DNA of 64,000 bases, taken from Methyloceanibacter superfactus. GTDB lineage: Bacteria > Pseudomonadota > Alphaproteobacteria > Rhizobiales > Methyloligellaceae. The notes under the pieces were generated by a model, which did not search any database, was not told the origin of the DNA, and was given only the letters and a program-made list of their open reading frames with translations. Within the stretch, counting starts at the first letter, position 1, and each line of letters starts with the position of its first letter. The DNA is taken from NCBI RefSeq assembly GCF_001723305.1, contig NZ_LPWF01000004.1:1-64000 (forward strand), given 5' to 3'. Position numbers and translations under genes: made by a program. Below are positions 28,097 to 37,939 of this stretch, one piece after another.

Positions 28097-29729
28097 CTAG
28101 CCTTTGGGCGGCGGCTCGGAGTCCGGCAGGGCCTCGGAGTCGTCCGTCAGGTCCGGCTCCTGGAGATTGACGGGCGCGGTCGAGTCCGCCGCCGTGGAGA
28201 CCTCCCGCAACAGGCCCATGAACCATTTGCGCCCAAGCCCGAAATAGACCAGCGCGAAATAAAAGCGCCCCGCCGAAGGCGACCAGCAGCGCGAGCATCG
28301 TCTCGTCACGGAAATGGGTGAGACCGGCCAGCGCCTGCTCGAGCCCGTAGGCGCCGGCGAAAAGCGCGGCGGCGAACACCACACCGATGGTGACCAGCTT
28401 GACCACGGGGGCGCCGATGGCCGTGCCCGCCACGGCGAACCCTTGGCGGCGGGCGAAGTAGGCGAGCAGGCTCAAATTGATCCAGGCGCCAACGCTGGTG
28501 GCAAGCGCCAGGCCGACTTGGGCGAGCGGCCCCATGAGCACGACCTTCAAGGCGATGTTGACGGTGGCGGCCAGAAGCGCCGCCTTGACCGGCGTCAGCG
28601 TATCCCGGCGCGCATAGAAGGGCGCGGTGAAGCTCCTGAGTAGGACGAAGGGCAGCAGCCCGATCGAGTAGGCGGCAAGGGTCGAGCCGGCGGCGAGCGC
28701 ATCGGCGGCGGTGAAAGCGCCGCGGGCGAACAGCGCGCGCATGATGAGATCGGGGATGGCGATGGCCGCCGCCGCGCACGGCACGGTGAGCAGTAGCGCC
28801 AGCTGAATGCCGCGCGCTTGCGCCGAGGCCGCCCCCTTCTCATCGCCCGCCGCGAGCCGCCGCGACATCTCCGGCAACAGCACGGTGCCGACGGCGATGC
28901 CGACGACGCCGATGGGCAATTGGTTGATGCGGTCGGCGTAATAGAGCGCCGACAGGGCGCCGGTGGGCAGGAAGGTGGCGATCAGCGTGTCGGCGAACAG
29001 CGCGAGCTGCACGCCGCCGGCGCCGATGATCGCGGGTCCGAGCGCCTTCAAGAATTTCCGGGTCGGCTCATCGAGCTTCGGCATGCGCAACCGGATGCCG
29101 AAGCCATGGGCCTCGGCATCGGCGCCGAGGAGCAGGGCTTGCGCCACGCCGGCGATGAGCACGCCCCAGGCCGCGGCGTGGCCGGCATCGGCGAACCACG
29201 GCGTGAGCAGCAGCGTGGCGATGACCGAGAGATTGAGCAGCACCGGCGCGCTGGCCGCCGCGGCGAAACGGTTATTGGCGTTGAGGATGCCGGCGAACAG
29301 CGTCTCGAGCGACACCAGCGCCAAATAGGGGAAGGTGATGCGGGTGAGCGCGACGGCCAGATCGAAGCGCTCCGGATCGCCGACGAGGCCGGGGGCGAGA
29401 AGCCCGACCACCTCCGGCGTGAACAGCAGCGCGATGGCGAGCAGCACCAGATTGATGGCGACCAAGGCGGCGGCGATCTGGTCGGCGAACAGCTTGGCGG
29501 CCGGCAGGCCCGCTTCTTCAAGCGTGCGCGCATAGGCCGGCACGAAGGCGGCGGCGAAGGCCCCTTCGGCGAAGATGGCGCGGAAATGGTTGGGCAGGCG
29601 GAAGGCCACGAAGAAGGCGTCGGCCATGGGCCCGGCGCCGAGAATGGCGGCCATGACCACGTCACGGATGAAGCCCGAGAGGCGCGAGACGAGCGTGAGC
29701 CCGCCGACGGTGGCGATGCGCCTGATCAT
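28097..29729 (-). CDS. murJ: Lipid II flippase MurJ/MviN, frameshifted near the C-terminus
   Basis: The protein of about 540 residues has fourteen predicted membrane helices and the N-terminal pattern GGLTLVSRLSGFIRDVVMAA, with the Arg residues conserved in MurJ. FRLPNHFRAIFAEGAFAAAF and LRSFTAPFYARRDTLTPVK are further family landmarks. Near 28262 a one-base shift takes the true end into FYFALVYFGLGRKWFMGLL and a short acidic tail ending PPPKG. It flips lipid II across the inner membrane for wall synthesis. The murI-murJ neighbourhood fits this role. Confidence 0.92.
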
Positions 29730-29867
29730 GCCTTGTTGCCGACCCTCATGGTCTCTCCCCGTTCGCGGCAGAGGCGTAGATGAATTTCAGGCCCTTGACC
29801 ATGCCTCCTCTGGTCACGCGAAATCCTTGCCGCGGCGCGGGCGCGCCCGGATCATGCTGTTTTGCTT

Positions 29868-29897
29868 GCGCTACCGGCCTCTGGCCTACTTGAGCGC
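29868..29897 (+). repeat. Dispersed copy of the left-edge repeat unit
   Basis: GCGCTACC...CTACTTGAGCGC repeats the outer bases of the tandem unit at 18-43. The interior is replaced by the short palindrome GGCCTCTGGCC. Conserved ends with a variable self-complementary middle suggest a small mobile or structured repeat family. Confidence 0.4.
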
Positions 29898-30314
29898 ATC
29901 CTTCCCTGGCTCCCATGAAGTCCCCCCGAAGTGAGGGGGGTGGCGCGCCGCGTGGCGCAAGGTCCTTTAGGCATCCGCGGGGCTTTGCGGGACCCGCGGC
30001 GGGCGCCGTAACGGCGCGCCACATCCGGCGCTATTTTATGGCCTCATACCGCTCTGCTTCTCACCTGTGGCACAGGCATGCGCATGGAGATCACATGTCT
30101 CACCCGATGACCCACGCGTTACAGCGCAGGTGGGCGGAGTAGAGACCCCCGGGGCCGGAACGCGTCTTCCTGGCGCGGGGTCCGGGCCTATCGGGAATTT
30201 CGCATCCGAGATCAGCCCATCTGTCCGCACGCCTTCCCCGGGCGCCGCACCCCGACCCGCATCTCAAGACGCCTCATGAGCGCGCCCCTTAAACGGACGA
30301 GGTGAACGCATTGT

Positions 30315-30338
30315 ACGGCAGGTTTGGGAGGCGGGGAT
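30315..30338 (-). repeat. Boundary motif, solitary copy
   Basis: GGCAGGTTTGGGAGGCGGGG matches the sequence that directly adjoins each truA 3' remnant at 32395 and 35423. Here no truA sequence is attached. It may mark the outer end of the oldest insertion. Confidence 0.5.
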
Positions 30339-30507
30339 AACGGCGGGGACAAGCTTGATGTGCAGCTTAGCCAGTCGGCTCGCCCGGCATTGTGTATCAA
30401 GAGCACCAAAGGCCAGAAAACGGAGTCAAATCAGATGATTAGGGAGGGTCCGGTATAGAGAGGGCCGCGCCATGTGGGCGCGTGCGGCGTTGGCCGTATT
30501 CATAGTG

Positions 30508-31539
30508 CTATTCCATCTGCCCGTCGATCTGGCGAAGGCGAATGTTGTCTTCCTCAAAGAACAGTTCGTTCACAGGAATGAACGATCCCCCGGGCCCATC
30601 TTGATAGAATTCATAGACACAGAAACTCTTATGAAGCTTGGGGGGCTCCTCAGTTCCAAAGTATGCGGCGTACACGACGAGCACGCTCTGGAATCTCTCC
30701 AGGTCCATATTCTTCTTGGAGACTTTGAAATCCCCGGGCATTCTAAGCACGTGCGTTATACTGGAGCCTGGCGCTACTGCGTAAGTTTCGTAACCACTTA
30801 CGTCTCCAGCAATCTCATCAAACCAGTCAATGAGCTTCTTGGCTCCAACGTCACACACGTAGGAGCCGTTTTCTTCAAAGAAGCGGTGCCCCGGTATCGG
30901 ACCCTCTGCTGGCTCATATTGGTCTGCCGTTTTGACGAATATATTGACGTTTCTGGCAGGCATCGTTCCGCTATTAGCAACCCGCACCGAGAGCCTAAAC
31001 GCATACTGACGATATGGAAGGTCGGATTGCGAGTTGGCTTCTTTATTAGCTTCAATCACGTTGCTGATTTTGGGTGTCTCAATACTCAGCCACGGGCGTT
31101 GCCCGGCACGAATAATTTCGTTGGCGGTTTCAGCGTGCGTGGCGGCAGCAATCGCAGCCCTATTAGCTTGTCGCGTCAGCCAAAGAGTCACGAAGAGAAG
31201 AATGGTGCCGACGCCAACAAGAACGGTGGAATACAGAGAATAATCCGCCATACGCTGCGTGGCTTCATTCATGGCCTGCGTTGCCGCGTTCATCCCTTGC
31301 TGGGCAGCAAGGTCATCTATCTCATGTTGGCGGGATTCGGCTTCTCTGCTCTTGCGGGAATTTGCGGTGGCCTCATCCTCGATTATGTCTACAGGAAGAG
31401 GAATAGGCAGCGTTTGGGCTGGCTTCTGTTCAGTCTGAACCTGCCCCTGTTCGTCCTGTGCCTGCTCCTGGGCCTTCCCTAGGCCAGCTAGGAAAATCAG
31501 TCCAAGCGCAAGTGCTGTGATCCGATAGCGTCGAGACAT
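30508..31539 (-). CDS. Hypothetical membrane-anchored protein
   Basis: The 343-residue product begins MSRRYRITALALGLIFLAGL, a probable signal peptide, followed by a Gln/Glu-rich segment. A helical region rich in Ala, Gln and Glu (QHEIDDLAAQQGMNAATQAM) leads to one transmembrane helix (YSTVLVGVGTILLFVTLWL, about residues 100-120). The C-terminal half is predicted beta-rich, with AGQRPWLSIETPKIS and VRVANSGTMPARNVNIFVKT. This resembles widespread accessory-region proteins of unknown function. Its GC content is visibly lower than that of the neighbours, supporting horizontal acquisition. Confidence 0.7.
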   Translation of the reverse strand: MSRRYRITALALGLIFLAGLGKAQEQAQDEQGQVQTEQKPAQTLPIPLPVDIIEDEATANSRKSREAESRQHEIDDLAAQQGMNAATQAMNEATQRMADYSLYSTVLVGVGTILLFVTLWLTRQANRAAIAAATHAETANEIIRAGQRPWLSIETPKISNVIEANKEANSQSDLPYRQYAFRLSVRVANSGTMPARNVNIFVKTADQYEPAEGPIPGHRFFEENGSYVCDVGAKKLIDWFDEIAGDVSGYETYAVAPGSSITHVLRMPGDFKVSKKNMDLERFQSVLVVYAAYFGTEEPPKLHKSFCVYEFYQDGPGGSFIPVNELFFEEDNIRLRQIDGQME

Positions 31540-31705
31540 TGGATTAAGAAGGCTGCCGTGAATCCACCACGGTTGATCTTATTGTTTAGGTTGCGCCCTG
31601 TCTCTCGCTTACACCAAAGCTAATGGCAGTGAACTCTGCCGACGCTGTTGTCCATATGGCAGCACTGAGGGTGATAGGGCCGGGGATAGATAGGTGAGCA
31701 CAGCG

Positions 31706-32189
31706 CTCCCTCCCCCTGAAAGGGGGAGGTCGCTTGGCTAAGCCAAGCCGGGTGGGGGTCAATCTCGAAGTCGTCTCAGTTCCGAGGCGATCCTCTCCAT
31801 TACACCCTCGATGTTGCTCCAAACGTCGCGATTGGCGAAGCGAAGGACGCGAATGCCGCGTGCCTCAAGGAACCTTGTGCGTAGGACATCATGCTCCGCC
31901 CGGCCCGCGTGGGTATCCCCGTCAAGCTCGATGGCGAGGCGCAAGCGCGCGCAATAGAAGTCGAGGACATAGGGACCGACGGGATGCTGACGCCGAAAGG
32001 AGGCGCCCAGTTGTGTCCCCCGCAGAGCGTGCCAGAGTCTTTGCTCAATCGGAGACATGCGCCGGCGCAGAGTTCTGGCGCGCGTGGTCATGGCGAGTGT
32101 GCGGCTGAAGCGCGAGTCTCTCGTAGCCATGAAAGCGACCCCCACCCGGCGCGCAGGCGCGCCGACCTCCCCCTTTCAGGGGGAGGGAG
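31706..32189. mobile_element. Compact DUF559 element with perfect inverted termini
   Basis: The outer 27 bases at 31706-31732 (CTCCCTCCCCCTGAAAGGGG...) are the exact reverse complement of 32163-32189. Inside each arm is a short palindrome that differs between ends (CTTGGCTAAGCCAAG on the left, CGCGCAGGCGCGC on the right), and then a perfect 13-base inverted repeat, CCGGGTGGGGGTC at 31748-31760 against 32137-32149. The only content is one DUF559 gene, whose stop codon overlaps the left arm. The layout is that of a REP doublet or MITE carrying its own nuclease-like gene. No target-site duplication is obvious. Confidence 0.6.
31759..32130 (-). CDS. DUF559 family endonuclease-like protein
   Basis: The 123-residue protein has the DUF559 layout: RARTLRRRMSPIEQRLWHAL, then FRRQHPVGPYVLDFYCARLR, then LAIELDGDTHAG and RTRFLEARGIRVLRFANRDV. 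The D-x-Y ... E-L-D pattern fits the PD-(D/E)XK fold of Vsr-like nucleases; FYC and ELDGD would supply active-site acids. It starts at 32130, since the longer reading enters the terminal inverted repeat. DUF559 proteins are common in mobile regions, but their function is not established. The flanking inverted repeats make it a candidate mobility enzyme. Confidence 0.75.
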   Translation of the reverse strand: MATRDSRFSRTLAMTTRARTLRRRMSPIEQRLWHALRGTQLGASFRRQHPVGPYVLDFYCARLRLAIELDGDTHAGRAEHDVLRTRFLEARGIRVLRFANRDVWSNIEGVMERIASELRRLRD

Positions 32190-32204
32190 TCTACACCCCA
32201 CTCG

Positions 32205-32394
32205 TCAGTAGTCCACGCGCACGAAATAAAGGCCGCAAGCCGGGGCCACGGGGCCGCAGGCCGTGCGGTCGCGCGCGTTCAGGGCTTTTTTCAGATCGTC
32301 GGCGGTTCATTTGCCGCCGCCCACGAGCTTGAGCGAGCCCACCATGGAGCGCACCTGGTTGTGGAGGAAGGACCGCGACGAGGCCTCGATCCAC
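32205..32394 (-). pseudogene. truA: truA 3'-end remnant 1
   Basis: This is a diverged copy of the last 62 codons of truA, roughly 85% identical by eye to 37205-37394. It includes the motif [14 protein letters not shown] and the stop. An in-frame TGA replaces the Trp codon in the KWTA segment, so it is dead. Homology ends abruptly at the same base as in remnant 2, where the boundary motif GGCAGGTTT begins. It lies 15 bases from the DUF559 element. Confidence 0.85.
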
Positions 32395-32436
32395 GGCAGG
32401 TTTGGCGCGCGGGGATTAAGTCGTCCGCTTCGTGCC
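32395..32436 (-). repeat. Boundary motif next to truA remnant 1
   Basis: GGCAGGTTT...GGGGATTAAGTCGTCCGCTTCGTGCC closely matches the block at 35423-35463. It begins at the exact base where truA homology stops. Its shorter form at 30315 lacks the GTCGTCCGCT part. Confidence 0.6.
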
Positions 32437-32533
32437 AAAAGCGGCTCTGGGCGCGTGGCATCATCCGCCACCTAGGCGCCAATCACGTCAGCAACGCCTG
32501 TCAGAGCTTCGTGTTGCGTTGTATAGAAGACGA

Positions 32534-33628
32534 ATGAACAGGTTCGTTTTAACCGCCGTTGCCTCTACCGTGGCCATTTTCTGCTATGCGCTGATTGCGG
32601 TCGCCGCGCCTCTTACAGAGGAGCCCACGACACAGGCATCTCAGGCAGCAAAGAGCGACTCTGTCCTTCTCGGTCTTCCGGAGGAGGACGACCCCGTAGT
32701 GGTTCGGGTTAGCCTCGAGATTCAAGACATCGACGAAATCAACGAAGAGAATGAAACCTTCGAATTCACAGGCGTTCTTACACTGATCTGGAGCGACAGC
32801 AGACAGGCCTTCGATCCTGCAGCGGCGGGAGTAGAGGAAAAAATCTACCAGGGCGACTATCAGTTCAACGAGCTGTCACCAAGCTGGTTTCCGCAAGTTG
32901 TCCTCGTCAACAGTTCCGGTTCCTTGGAACAGCAGGGAGTCGTGCTCCGGGCGCGGGCGGACGGCACCCAGATCCTAATCTCTAAGATAACGGCTGTTGC
33001 AAAGACGGAACTCGACTTGAAGCGCTTTCCATTCGACAGGCAGCGCTTGGAGGCCGTTTTCGAAGTGCTGGGTTTCGATCACAGCGAGGTCGTGATGCAA
33101 GTCGGCCAAGCGACTGCCAACGCGTTATGGGTGCCACAATGGACTATCAAAGGACTTAGTATGTCGACGGAGGATCGCGCCGTATCCTATGCCGGGCGCC
33201 GAGGGATTGCATCCATGTTTGTCGCGAGCGTCGACGTCCAGCGAGTGTCACTTTACATCGGCCGGTTAGTCATTCTTCCTCTTATCGTAATTGTATTACT
33301 CACCTTCTCGGTCTTCTGGATGGACAGGGCATCGTTGGGTGATCGGATCAGTGTATCGTTCATCGGGATCCTGACCGCTGTCGCGTATCAGGTCGTAATG
33401 AACGACATAATGCCCCGTATTGGATACGTGACTTGGATAGACGGCTTTTTGAACTTGAGCTTTTTGTTGATGGTCGGAACGGTCATCATCAACTTGGTGG
33501 TGGGCCGGCTTGACCAGCATAGTAGGCATGATGTTGCGCATCGCGTCGATGTTCTTTGCCGATGGGTTTTTCCTATCACCTACTTGGGGCTCATTCTGAT
33601 TTCATTCGCAGTGATGTCGCTGCTTTAG
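32534..33628 (+). CDS. Prokaryotic pentameric ligand-gated ion channel (Cys-loop superfamily, GLIC-like)
   Basis: The 364-residue protein has a signal peptide (NRFVLTAVASTVAIFCYALI), an extracellular beta-sandwich domain of about 200 residues, and four C-terminal transmembrane helices. KRFPFDRQRLE at about residue 160 is the family-defining loop in the bacterial form, which lacks the disulfide cysteines. The first membrane helix is RLVILPLIVIVLLTFSVFWM, followed by RISVSFIGILTAVAYQVV, the pore-lining region, and a further pair of helices. Such channels form homopentameric cation or anion pores gated by protons or small ligands. Base composition is less GC-rich than in the core genes. It lies between two truA remnants beside an outer-membrane porin, so it was probably acquired. 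Confidence 0.88.
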   Translation: MNRFVLTAVASTVAIFCYALIAVAAPLTEEPTTQASQAAKSDSVLLGLPEEDDPVVVRVSLEIQDIDEINEENETFEFTGVLTLIWSDSRQAFDPAAAGVEEKIYQGDYQFNELSPSWFPQVVLVNSSGSLEQQGVVLRARADGTQILISKITAVAKTELDLKRFPFDRQRLEAVFEVLGFDHSEVVMQVGQATANALWVPQWTIKGLSMSTEDRAVSYAGRRGIASMFVASVDVQRVSLYIGRLVILPLIVIVLLTFSVFWMDRASLGDRISVSFIGILTAVAYQVVMNDIMPRIGYVTWIDGFLNLSFLLMVGTVIINLVVGRLDQHSRHDVAHRVDVLCRWVFPITYLGLILISFAVMSLL

Positions 33629-33707
33629 CCGTTAATGGTCTTACCCTTAGCCATAAATACGACACTGTTGGCAAACTGGCGCCTGCTTTTTTCAGCTCTT
33701 GGCGAGG

Positions 33708-35057
33708 TCAGAATTTGATCGTGGTGCGCGCACCTACGACAGCGGCGTTGTCCAGAGGAATCTTGCCCGACGCATTTGGCAGATTGGCTCCCGGGCGCCA
33801 GAAATACTGGAAGTCCGGTTGAAGCGTCCAACTCGGATCGAGTTGGATTGTATAGCAGATCTCTAACAGCGCCTCGTAGTCGACTGTTCCTGACATCAAC
33901 GCGCCCAGGTCGTAAGTATCGACGTCAGCTGAAATGCCAGTGTAGGCGACGCCAATAGCTAAGGTGTCCTCTGGACGGTTCAGGATCATGCCCAAGAACG
34001 AGATACCGCCGTCTGCGTAGAAGTCGATAACGTTGCGATCTGAGGGCATACCCACGACACGTCCAAACAGCTGTATGCCCTTTGGCTTTTCACTCCGCGG
34101 TGCGCGCCAAACAAACTGTTCGAAGATAGCGTACAGGCCGTAGTTGTTGTCCACGCCACGAGAGGTTCCTGCGGATACACCATCTTGGAGCTCAAAATTG
34201 CCGAAGTGATTAAATCCGCCGATCTTGACCGTGCCAGCGAGCCCATCCTGGCTATGCCGATAGTCACCCTCAATCATCAAGAGCGGTGGATCGTCGAGCC
34301 GGAAATCAAGACCGTTGCTATTACATACCTGTGGATTGCCCTTGCAGTTGGGCCCGGCCGGATCGCCATTGTATATGCCCACCTGAAGCGTGAGTTGATT
34401 GTTGGGGGATAGCACAGCGTGTACGCCCGGCGTGGCGAGGGGATAAGCGGGACCACCACCCGGCAGATTAATGGCCATGATGGAAGGCCAGCCCCAAGTT
34501 CCGTTCAGAAATACACCACCACCTAGAACGTAAGTTGCGTCTGCTGCGAGTTGTCCCAGCTTGATGGCAAGCCGGTCATCGAACAAGTGCTGTTGGACCC
34601 AAAGTTCGAATAAGCGCGTCGCTGGAGTGGCTTCGAGATCGCTCACTGGCATCAGACTGCCAACGGCGTCGGCCGTTATACTTTGACCGTGAATTTGAAG
34701 TCCGTTGGTATGGAAGCAGAGGCCTTTCCAAAAGCCGAGCTTGTACATGTCGACATACATGGCAAGGTGCAGAAGGCCATCATAGTAGGTCCCCCGTTTG
34801 AGGCCCCCAGCCAGATTCGCTAGAACATCTGAGTAATACACTCCCGCAAGGGAGATACCGGATTCGACGAGGCCATCGCGCAAGGCGAGGGGACCGACCG
34901 AACGCGGGCCAAGATTGGAATGCAGCGTGTCCGTCAGGAATTCGGGGTCTGGAACGGTACAGTCCGCGCGTGCAACTCCCCCAAATAGGGCCACACAAAT
35001 AACGAGCATTGCAGCGAGTGCAGCTCCGCGTGGAAACCGTTGCCCCGAGAGAAACAT
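33708..35057 (-). CDS. OprB-family carbohydrate-selective outer-membrane porin
   Basis: The 449-residue protein starts at MFLSGQRFPRG with a signal peptide ending GVARADC. It then shows the OprB pattern, including GVYYSDVLANLAGGLKRG, LFELWVQQHLFDDRLAIKLG and a C-terminal beta-barrel ending in aromatic-rich WTLQPDFQYFWRPG and a final Phe (TTIKF), as needed for BamA-dependent insertion. OprB porins let sugars cross the outer membrane. It converges with the ligand-gated channel gene. Both are cargo of the same truA-bounded segment. Confidence 0.85.
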   Translation of the reverse strand: MFLSGQRFPRGAALAAMLVICVALFGGVARADCTVPDPEFLTDTLHSNLGPRSVGPLALRDGLVESGISLAGVYYSDVLANLAGGLKRGTYYDGLLHLAMYVDMYKLGFWKGLCFHTNGLQIHGQSITADAVGSLMPVSDLEATPATRLFELWVQQHLFDDRLAIKLGQLAADATYVLGGGVFLNGTWGWPSIMAINLPGGGPAYPLATPGVHAVLSPNNQLTLQVGIYNGDPAGPNCKGNPQVCNSNGLDFRLDDPPLLMIEGDYRHSQDGLAGTVKIGGFNHFGNFELQDGVSAGTSRGVDNNYGLYAIFEQFVWRAPRSEKPKGIQLFGRVVGMPSDRNVIDFYADGGISFLGMILNRPEDTLAIGVAYTGISADVDTYDLGALMSGTVDYEALLEICYTIQLDPSWTLQPDFQYFWRPGANLPNASGKIPLDNAAVVGARTTIKF

Positions 35058-35232
35058 GCATCCGCTCTGAAAAATTGCCAATGCGGTCTAAAAATAGCAT
35101 GCAGCGAACAAGGCGCATACTTAGGGCTATCCAAGCTGGGCCTGGGGAGAACAAGGGCCGAAGCTCTCTGTGCTGGATGCCGGGTGAGTCCGCTTCGGGT
35201 CACGAGCGGACGTTTCGTCCGTGTCGAGCCCG

Positions 35233-35422
35233 TCAGTAGTCCAGACGCACCAGGTAGAGGCCGCAGGCCGGCGCCACGGGGCCGCAAGCCGTGCGCTTGC
35301 GGGCTTCCAGGGCGTTTTTCAGGTCGCCCGCGGTCCATTTGCCGCCGCCCACGAGCTTGGGCGAGCCCACCCTGGAGCGGACCTGGTTGTGCAGGAAGGA
35401 GCGGGACGAGGCCTCGACCCAC
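35233..35422 (-). pseudogene. truA: truA 3'-end remnant 2
   Basis: This is another copy of the last 62 codons of truA with an open frame ([14 protein letters not shown] to the stop). The homology with the intact gene continues about 36 bases past the stop: GTCAC-AGCGGACGTTTCG and CCGTGTCGAGCCCG occur at both 35197 and 37171. It ends on the truA side at the same base as remnant 1 and is followed by the boundary motif. It differs from the intact gene at about one base in eight, so it is not a recent duplication. Confidence 0.88.
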
Positions 35423-35463
35423 GGCAGGTTTTCGAGGCGGGGATAAGTCGTCCGCTAAGTGCC
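35423..35463 (-). repeat. Boundary motif next to truA remnant 2
   Basis: GGCAGGTTTTCGAGGCGGGG followed by ATAAGTCGTCCGCT and GTGCC, matching the block at 32395-32436. The insertion sequence begins three or four bases beyond it. Confidence 0.6.
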
Positions 35464-35466
35464 ATG

Positions 35467-36857
35467 TGTGGACGGCTCCATGTTGGCAAGGGTTTTTTGA
35501 GCGCTATCGCACGGCTGGTCGGAGCTGCCATGTGTTCGGCCTGTTGATGCGGCGCTGTTCATGGCCGCTGGCCATAATGCTCTCCGCAGATCGGGTCCCG
35601 GTCAAAAGCACGCGCTTCAAGTGGCGCTCTGGCACTTGTGGGTTGTCCCGGTCCGTGGGCCGACTGGCTTGGGTGCGTTATGCGATCATTGCCCTTTCCA
35701 ACTTCGTTGCACGGGAAGTTCCCCGCGCGTTCGTGTTGCTGCCTTATGCTGATGCCGGCAGCGGTGTTCGGTAGCTCTCATTGTGGGCCATCATCGCCCA
35801 GGCTATGCGCGCGATCTTATTGGCCAGTGCGATAGCGGCGATCTTGACCGATCGGCGCTCCATGAGCCTGACGAGCCAGGGATGGCGTGTGTAGCCCAAC
35901 TGTTTTGCTCGTCTGATGACCGACAGGGCGCCAACGACCAGTAACGAACGTAAGTATCGGTTGCCCGCCTTGGTGATAGAGCCGAGGCGTTCCTTGCCGC
36001 CGGTGGAACTCTGTTTTGGGACCAGCCCGATCCAGGCACTCAAGTCACGGCCTGAACGGAAGACATTTGGATCAGGGATGCTGGCAACAAGGGCTGTGGC
36101 GATCAACGGACCGACACCGGGGATCGCTTCAAGCCGTTTGCTGGTCTTGCTGGTCCGGCGCCATGCAAGCAACCGTCGATCGGCTTCCAGGATCTGGCGC
36201 TTCACCATTGCAAGCTGTGCCGCCAGGGCCATCAGGCACGCGTGGGCTGCCGGTGGTATGCGCTCATCCTCGCCCCTGGTGATGAGATCCAACAACTTCT
36301 CGACGCCGTGGCGGCCAATACCGGCAACAATGCCGAACTCTGCAAGATGCGCCCGGATCGCGTTGATCAACGCCGTACGCTGGCGAATAAACAACTGCCG
36401 GGTCCGGTGTAGCATCAGTACCGATTGCTGCTCAGGGCTCTTGATCGGCACAAAGCGCATCGTGGGGCGTTGAACCGCTTCACAGATCGCCTCAGCATCG
36501 GCAGCATCGTTCTTGTTGCGCTTGACGTAAGGCTTCACATAGCGCGGCGGCATCAGCCGCACCTCATGGCCCACCTTCTCAAGCTCTCGAGCCCAGTGAT
36601 GCGCAGTCGCACAGGCCTCAATGCCGATCACGCACCCCGACAGCTTGCGAAAGAAGGGCAAGACCTGAGACCGCCTCAGTTGTCGACGGACGATCACCGC
36701 GCCGAATGCATCAATCCCGTGAACTTGAAAAACCGACTTGGCGATATCCAAACCAATCGTTGTAATCTCTTGCATGGATGGCTCCTCTCAACTGGGATCG
36801 CTTCAACAACAGCAACCACAGTGTGGCACCTGGATGCCGGTGGAGGAGCCGTCCACA
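35467..36857 (-). mobile_element. IS110-family (IS1111-type) insertion sequence
   Basis: TGTGGACGGCTCC at 35467-35479 and GGAGCCGTCCACA at 36845-36857 are perfect 13-bp inverted repeats around the transposase gene, giving an element of about 1.4 kb. Inverted repeats near the ends and a long noncoding stretch downstream of the transposase (35467-35743) are IS1111-group traits. In this group that stretch encodes the guide (seek/bridge) RNA. Exact termini cannot be set without an empty site. Confidence 0.75.
35744..36775 (-). CDS. IS110-family transposase
   Basis: The 343-residue protein has an N-terminal RuvC-like DEDD domain, with IGLDIAKSVFQVHGID, IGIEACATAHHWARELE and KNDAADAEAICEAV supplying the acidic residues. 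The C-terminal Tnp_20 domain has LEAIPGVGPLIATALVASI and FRSGRDLSAWIGLVPKQ, the latter before the conserved serine region KQSSTGGKERLGSITKAGNR. It is intact, so the element could be active. IS110 enzymes recombine target and donor DNA under guidance of a structured RNA. Confidence 0.95.
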   Translation of the reverse strand: MQEITTIGLDIAKSVFQVHGIDAFGAVIVRRQLRRSQVLPFFRKLSGCVIGIEACATAHHWARELEKVGHEVRLMPPRYVKPYVKRNKNDAADAEAICEAVQRPTMRFVPIKSPEQQSVLMLHRTRQLFIRQRTALINAIRAHLAEFGIVAGIGRHGVEKLLDLITRGEDERIPPAAHACLMALAAQLAMVKRQILEADRRLLAWRRTSKTSKRLEAIPGVGPLIATALVASIPDPNVFRSGRDLSAWIGLVPKQSSTGGKERLGSITKAGNRYLRSLLVVGALSVIRRAKQLGYTRHPWLVRLMERRSVKIAAIALANKIARIAWAMMAHNESYRTPLPASA

Positions 36858-37047
36858 GCATCAGAACCGGACCTGCTCGACCTGGAGGCCATTCTTGTCG
36901 CTGGACAGTTTGTCCAACGCCTCCCACTGCGCCGGGAGGCGTTGGATGATTCCGCACAGCATGAGCCACGGGTCCCCACGCGGTGCAGAAGACCCCGAAA
37001 ACCATGGCTAAGCGCGCGAAGGCCCGGATAGCGGCTTGCTTGTTCAC
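36858..37047 (-). pseudogene. Exported protein gene truncated by the insertion sequence
   Basis: A GTG at 37047 follows AAAGGAG by eight or nine bases and starts MNKQAAIRAFARLAMVFGVF, a convincing signal peptide, with a likely cleavage after VAHA. About 63 codons remain before the insertion sequence end, after which the frame reads antisense IS sequence. The product is not recognisable. A perfect 12-bp hairpin (CCAACGCCTCCC/GGGAGGCGTTGG, 36914-36945) lies inside it. Confidence 0.5.
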
Positions 37048-37204
37048 CGTCCGGGCTCCTTTTGGGCGCAGCCTTGGACAAACAGCAGAGTGACAGCAAT
37101 TCGGTCGCAGGGGCTGATTTAAGCGCGAACCACGTTGTCAGGCAACACTCGACCCAGAGCCAGCTATTGGGTCACTAGCGGACGTTTCGCCCGTGTCGAG
37201 CCCG

Positions 37205-37939
37205 TCAGTAGTCCACGCGCACCAAATAAAGGCCGCAGGCCGGCGCCACGGGTCCGCAGGCGGTGCGCTTGCGCGCTTCCAGGGCCTTCTTCAGGTCGGC
37301 GGCGGTCCATTTGGCGTCGCCCACGAGCTTCAGCGAGCCGACCATGGAGCGCACCTGGTTGTGCAGGAAGGAGCGCGACGAGGCCTCGATCCACACCTCT
37401 TCACCATGGCGGGCGACGGCCAGTCTATCGAGCGTCTTCTCCGGCGAGGCCGCCTGACATTCGGTCGAGCGGAAGGTGGTGAAATCGAAATGGCCGACCA
37501 GGACCTGCGCCGCCGCGTGCATGGCATCCGCGTCGAGCTCGTAGATGATGTGCCAGGCGCGGTCGCGCTCGAGCGCCAGGGGGCCGCGCCGATTGACGAT
37601 GCGATAGCGATAATGACGGGTCTTGGCCGAGAAGCGCGCGTCGAAGCCGTCCGTGACCTTCTCGCAGGCGAGCACGCTGATCGGGTCCGGCCGCAAATGC
37701 GCGTTCAAGGCATCGCCCACCTTCTTGGCCGGCCAGTCCTTGGTCAGGTCGACCATGGCGACCTGGGCCAGCGCATGCACGCCGGCATCGGTGCGCCCGG
37801 CGCCGCGCGGGATCATGTCCTCGCCGGAAAACGCCTTGAGCGCCTCGGTGAGGCGGCCTTGCACCGTGGGGCGGTCCTGCATTTGCCAGCCGGCGAAGGG
37901 CGTGCCGTCATATTCGATGGTGAGCTTGTAGCGCGGCAT
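37205..37939 (-). CDS. truA: tRNA pseudouridine(38-40) synthase TruA
   Basis: The intact 244-residue enzyme begins [20 protein letters not shown] and carries the catalytic Asp in [15 protein letters not shown]. The C-terminal [20 protein letters not shown] is the region copied in the two remnants. It isomerises uridines 38-40 in the anticodon arm. It follows fmt by two bases, giving a def-fmt-truA translation-related group. The 3' 190 bases coincide exactly with the repeated segment, so the current end may itself derive from an inserted element. Confidence 0.96.

Follow-up and report, generated by a model that had tools for sequence, protein, structure and literature searches.

Displaced truA 3′ ends joined to the tail of a dispersed repeat in the truA–murJ spacer of Methyloceanibacter superfactus

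The window analysed here is a 64,000-nucleotide stretch of DNA from Methyloceanibacter superfactus (GCF_001723305.1, contig NZ_LPWF01000004.1, positions 1–64,000, forward strand), in which the spacer between truA and murJ consists of 7475 bp of accessory DNA (29730–37204) and carries two displaced copies of the truA 3′ end. The intact truA, which encodes tRNA pseudouridine synthase A (244 aa, Pfam PF01416), is located at 37205–37939 on the minus strand, and the N-terminal part of murJ, identified by Pfam and by comparison with relatives, is located at 28319–29729 on the same strand. The first truA 3′-end remnant, R1, occupies 32205–32394 (minus strand) and has one internal stop, as found by repeat search and pairwise comparison, while the second, R2, occupies 35233–35422 (minus strand), with homology to the intact locus extending to 35197. 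The recurrence of the last 190 bp of truA at these two places had been noticed in an earlier reading made from the letters alone (the sequence-only reading), and it was confirmed by a direct-repeat search, which gave a family with copies at 32169–32394, 35197–35422 and 37169–37394; each of these copies contains 190 bp of truA, and all three ends are in direct orientation. In R2 and the intact gene, 36 bp past the stop codon are also common (89% over 226 bp). A fourth truA end was not found between murJ and R1 (29730–32200), where the best match is 16 bp.

A short motif is directly fused to R1 at 32395–32418 and to R2 at 35423–35446 (both plus strand), and it occurs again at 30317–30340 (plus strand), where it closes a copy of a dispersed non-coding repeat with the repeat body in front; this copy (29861–30340, plus strand) adjoins murJ and is the left border of the array. 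The array is made up of interval E1 (30341–32204), which holds the genes of a 343-aa protein and a DUF559 protein; unit E2 (32395–35422), which holds the motif, a channel-like gene, an OprB-type porin gene and the truA end R2; and unit E3 (35423–37394), which holds the motif, an IS110/IS1111-type element and the truA 3′ end of the intact gene. That each interval carries different cargo, as the sequence-only reading had stated, is borne out by the content of open reading frames (ORFs) and Pfam domains and by locus comparison. The left edge of E2 has the half-site CGTCCGCT (32422–32429, plus strand) with the inverse AGCGGACG at 35205–35212, and the pair CGTCCGCT/AGCGGACG is found again at the edges of E3 (35449–35456 and 37177–37184), with three more such half-sites elsewhere in the window. 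E2 and E3 therefore have both edges in common while their cargo is different; between units only the edges are homologous, and the whole-unit homology expected of a tandem duplication is missing. A single full CGTCCGCT palindrome is present in the window, located at R2, and in the other loci examined, short of a whole-genome search, only overlapping copies were seen; the idea that this hairpin is a genome-wide repeat was rejected on the single full palindrome in the window.

A truA match is present in 58 of 61 genomes, the source genome included. The truA–murJ gap was surveyed in 21 stretches from relatives, of which 7 had no murJ match and 14 held both genes. In 10 of these 14, truA is followed directly by murJ with a gap of 31–74 bp, and the remaining four have gaps of 178 bp, 385 bp and, twice, about 2.4 kb; spacer length is also variable in a few relatives. 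Compared with the 7475 bp found here, the short gap of the relatives means that the entire array is extra DNA in the spacer, and the empty truA|murJ site, which the sequence-only reading had proposed to look for as the mark of an element inserting into a 3′ end, does exist. The two spacers of about 2.4 kb belong to G012 and G015 (L056 and L064), where the same spacer is used too and where a similar secreted-looking small gene follows truA, as judged by eye. The truA of G016 (L031, G016:C3) is cut near residue 181, close to where the remnants break, and runs by eye into a ruvB-like gene; the contig was read as probably chimeric, because truA is joined to another gene and runs of N are present. 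The murJ frame of the window is broken near ~28300, where an 841-aa ORF departs from the MurJ frame and the C-terminal end lies in another frame; the G002 gene has 543 aa, and the break is either real or a sequencing error.

Both remnants lose the truA match at the same base, after ...CCAC, and then read GGCAGGTTT...GGGGAT(T)AAGTCGTCCGCT, so that the identical break base and adjoining motif described in the sequence-only reading stand. The motif GGCAGGTTTN5GCGGGGAT (30317, 32395 and 35423) occurs 3 times in the window against a mean of 0.28 at ≤3 mismatches, and a count of 3 was reached in 0 of 100 shuffles. Sequence comparison shows it to be the terminal ~24 bp of the dispersed non-coding repeat, which can reach ~480 bp, and hence not specific to truA. 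The repeat copy in the window (29861–30340) has the same orientation as the tails joined to truA, is fuller than these and borders the array, and the fullest other copy could be aligned over 478 bp. Leaving aside those cut by a contig end, most alignments end no more than 12 bp from a common base, while that of L110 (G000:C5) ends inside the repeat; this gives the many copies with one sharp common end that characterize a dispersed repeat. Further copies are found on G000 contigs C5, C6, C15, C16, C23, C25, C27–C30, C33, C35, C37 and C38, and 11 contig ends of the assembly fall within or beside the repeat, which is therefore abundant and a cause of assembly breaks. Within the order, the tail at ≤2 mismatches is found in 7 of 297 genomes and 3 of 122 genera (10 matches in this genome, 12 in G034) and is thus scattered rather than general; exact matches are also present in two Hyphomicrobiales metagenome-assembled genomes (MAGs), and, behind different bodies, the tail GGNAGGTTTTNGGNGCGGGGATAA also turns up in Devosia and in a small number of further Hyphomicrobiales. 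Only 2 of 44 tails compared side by side by eye, R1 and R2, have truA in front; these 44 are part of the known copies (6 of the 12 G034 matches and G000:C10:46 are excluded), and two tail-bearing stretches outside the order (Arthrobacter and an Oscillospiraceae MAG) were likewise left aside, 8 stretches coming from that search. An attachment-site role of the motif was rejected, as it is a repeat end with copies in this genome, congeners, Devosia and further Hyphomicrobiales.

The motif at 30317 has no truA in front, and its right flank is unlike those of the other two and is shared with a repeat copy in G013. The AAGTCGTCCGCT part of the boundary is common to both truA junctions, as had been claimed, and it is also present, less exactly, in a repeat copy of a related genome, G008:C440. 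In that copy the repeat body stands in front of the tail, a hairpin-like flank behind it matches R2 (87% over 46 bp) and R1 (77% over 53 bp), and the tail start reads CAC|GGCAGG. Since the 30317 flank differs and the R1/R2 flank resembles that of G008:C440, a different repeat copy is the probable source of the tail at R1 and R2. As to the nature of the repeat, an Rfam search of the motif-bearing repeat gave no family at gathering score, and in 20 copies the final ~105 nt gave no support for a conserved RNA structure (8 pairs, of which one has a two-sided change, and a covariation term of +0.34), so that a non-coding RNA was rejected; an origin from an rRNA flank was dropped, with no 16S match in the assembly and no rRNA match in the 13 loci scanned. 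No transposase was seen beside the repeat among seven left-hand genes, which look ordinary by eye and on which no domain search was made. On G000:C38 (L051, 4237–11101), two repeat tails are separated by ~4 kb and have defence-like genes on their right, namely those of an Mrr_cat nuclease (PADLOC PDC-S02), a HEPN protein and an NsnA-like protein.

The divergence of about one base in eight given by the sequence-only reading agrees with measurement: R1 and the intact gene have 20 differences in 190 bp (~1 in 9.5), R2 and the intact gene 22 (~1 in 8.6), and R1 and R2 26 (~1 in 7.3), the three ends being nearly equidistant. The intact end has at least 39 differences from each of 18 relatives, and the three ends cluster together apart from these in the 3′ tree (support 0.784). 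Differences among the three ends are mostly at third codon positions; between R1 and R2, this applies to 18 of 26, with 14 synonymous and 10 amino-acid changes. Neutral simulations were run under three models (4000 runs each, 14 changes on each of two branches), and the mean synonymous share expected of two decaying fragments was 25%, 31% and 22%, respectively. The observed R1–R2 share of 54% was reached in 0.075%, 0.75% and 0.05% of the runs, a test based on 26 differences in a short stretch of 190 bp and on equal neutral branches. Because this share is so rarely reached, the truA ends probably diverged largely inside working genes, and they could derive from working truA genes of separate lineages; the codon data thus read moderately support the import of truA ends. 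The locus itself holds an intact truA and two displaced ends, and the intact end would be one that was borne in, of which its 3′/5′ distances give no sign.

It is known that integrative islands inserted in gene 3′ ends supply a replacement end. The sequence-only reading had explained the stack in this way, and the corresponding scenario is that elements with a tyrosine or serine integrase, since lost or acting in trans, inserted into truA, each with a replacement 3′ end. The same junction base used twice in the same orientation, the constant ends with variable cargo, the restored intact gene and the coding-like divergence, which fits working ends, all agree with it. However, 28 ORFs of ≥80 aa overlap the spacer, and the 25 of them that were scanned (five also compared with PHROGs) yielded no integrase, as the sequence-only reading had itself remarked for tyrosine and serine integrases; the only recombinase in the scanned ORFs is the IS110-type transposase, and none of them places an integrase beside the supposed attachment site. 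That site is moreover the repeat tail, which occurs elsewhere without truA. A search with the TruA C-terminus gave a match in 383 of 397 genomes of the order, and no genome other than that of the window has truA remnants at E ≤ 1e-6, remnants more decayed than this threshold being beyond the search; thus, the order gives no support for an element that targets truA recurrently. Two TruA matches in G267 were rejected as remnants: they lie close to contig ends in surroundings that share 92.8% identity over 649 bp, which makes them look like a single gene in two versions. In addition, the viral contigs searched lack the R1/R2 junction sequence, and a pattern search suited to close relatives also found no truA relative in them; the 32 TruA C-terminus matches in phage records are all below 60% identity, and of 53 in plasmid records, the five above 60% are on replicons of 3.5–4.6 Mb, among the matches listed. 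No report of truA as an integration target was found in the literature searched, as judged from search results rather than full texts. Taken together, site-specific integrative elements are an unlikely source of the stack.

A local tandem duplication, in which a ~0.3-kb segment (repeat tail, short hairpin spacer and truA 3′ end) was triplicated, after which insertions entered the copies and the extra ends decayed, requires no enzyme and is suited to an array confined to one lineage. The junction type, unit end to unit start, is exactly what duplication yields, a natural repeat body stands in front of the leftmost unit, both edges are common to E2 and E3, a stop codon interrupts R1 and the three truA ends cluster together. 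This explanation is nevertheless rather doubtful: the synonymous and third-position changes between R1 and R2 exceed the expectation for two decaying fragments, and the flank after the 30317 motif is unlike the other two and matches that of the G013 repeat copy. Instead, with a probability close to an even chance, recombination with related lineages is tentatively proposed to have formed the stack, probably with no integrase of its own involved. Directly established are the extra DNA compared with relatives, the junction at one and the same base, the motif as a repeat tail, the different cargo and the third-position bias. Further points in favour are the fuller repeat copy at the border of the array, the nearly equal distances among the three ends and their clustering, the common edges of E2 and E3, the R1/R2 flank that recurs at a repeat copy of another species (G008:C440) and the IS110-type transposase as the one recombinase in the scanned ORFs. 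The proposed history would start in an ancestor with a single fusion of a truA end (...CCAC) to a repeat-copy tail; given that G008:C440 reads CAC|GGCAGG, 3 bp may have been shared at the joining. Strains could then have swapped units of repeat tail, cargo and truA end by ordinary homologous recombination, with the 190-bp truA end as the shared sequence; every swap would bring in a working truA end with its neighbouring cargo and leave the old end as a remnant, and later insertions (the IS110-type element and the DUF559 segment) may have remodelled the cargo. A further step is regarded as doubtful: the unit, with a repeat tail at one end and a working truA end at the other, would be mobile without a movement gene of its own and would gather alternative cargo beside truA through repeated capture from sister lineages, so that the remnants would record earlier truA alleles as dated fossils.

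Several observations weigh against recombination with related lineages. Neither a one-unit strain nor a donor was found, and no other of the 397 genomes of the order has remnants; therefore, the stacking steps were not observed, and a history in which an ancient junction was used again in two exchanges is more elaborate than one site-specific enzyme acting twice. With 12 of 26, the non-synonymous share between R1 and R2 comes close to the highest value for the working gene against five relatives (29–47%), and R1 carries a stop codon, so some neutral decay of the remnants is likely. The site pattern is patchy, with several R1-specific bases being the majority state in 17 relatives, which fits recombination yet weakens branch-wise tests. 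The intact 3′ end is unremarkable, with a mean 3′/5′ distance ratio of 0.99 (0.81–1.12 in 17 other genomes), and thus an origin outside the close clade is not supported for it. In the comparison of remnant and host phylogenies suggested by the sequence-only reading, the three ends stay together, and in the 3′ tree they group, on weak support, with G020 of another genus (0.780) and next with G006/G002 (0.895), whereas the window truA groups with G006 in the 5′ tree (0.963). The aligned 3′ comparison covers 18 relatives and the 5′ comparison 17 (the G002 gene is cut); site counts leave out G012, and G008 and G016 yielded no truA 3′ end. On the whole, the interpretation in the sequence-only reading is partly supported: the insertion compared with relatives, the differing cargo and the coding-like divergence of the ends speak for it, and the repeat-tail nature of the motif, the lack of an integrase in the scanned ORFs and the lack of truA remnants in the other genomes searched speak against it.

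The array resembles 3′-end islands in that the target gene is intact, old 3′ ends are left in direct orientation and different cargo lies between them; it differs in that no integrase was found here, truA was not seen reused in the other genomes searched and one end is a dispersed-repeat tail. Elements at prfC, guaA and tRNA genes are further examples of 3′-end insertion, and the mecD islands of Macrococcus are reportedly inserted at rpsI. Accessory hot spots in core-gene spacers are exchanged by recombination in the flanks, and the present locus is similar to these in its fixed core neighbours, truA and murJ, and in a spacer that ranges from 31 bp to 2.4 kb across the 14 stretches from relatives; it differs in having copies of the flanking gene's end between segments. 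The repeat may also be likened, by description and not by sequence, to the Rhizobium intergenic mosaic elements, which are non-coding, multi-copy and intergenic. The mecD islands of Macrococcus are integrative islands, and truA served there as a primer site beside the island (PMC5341023). If the proposed history is true, stacks of gene ends, which are usually read as integrase traces, could also arise when a core-gene end recombines with a dispersed repeat. Applied to displaced ends, the codon-position test assists in separating imports from locally duplicated ends and could serve at other islands without an integrase, and the repeat tail, which occurs in several genera of the order, can be searched for as a marker of spacers that collect accessory DNA.

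Within E1, the gene of the 343-aa protein (30508–31539, minus strand) has no Pfam match, and the DUF559 gene (31759–32145, minus strand) is flanked by perfect 27-bp inverted repeats (31706–31732 and 32163–32189); together, gene and repeats (31706–32189) resemble a small mobile cassette, and pieces of the repeat are found in other loci. Subterminal inverted repeats are typical of the IS1111 group, and the E3 element has such 13-bp repeats at 35467–35479 and 36845–36857, while its transposase (35744–36775, minus strand) has the DEDD and Transposase_20 domains (PF01548 and PF02371) of the IS110/IS1111 type. In E2, a gene resembling pentameric ligand-gated channels (32534–33628, plus strand) is followed by the OprB-type porin gene (33708–35081, minus strand). 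The channel gene has a match in 18 of 61 genomes, and its closest homologues, at 69–70% identity, are in the congeners G013 and G003, at unrelated loci without the porin and without the boundary.

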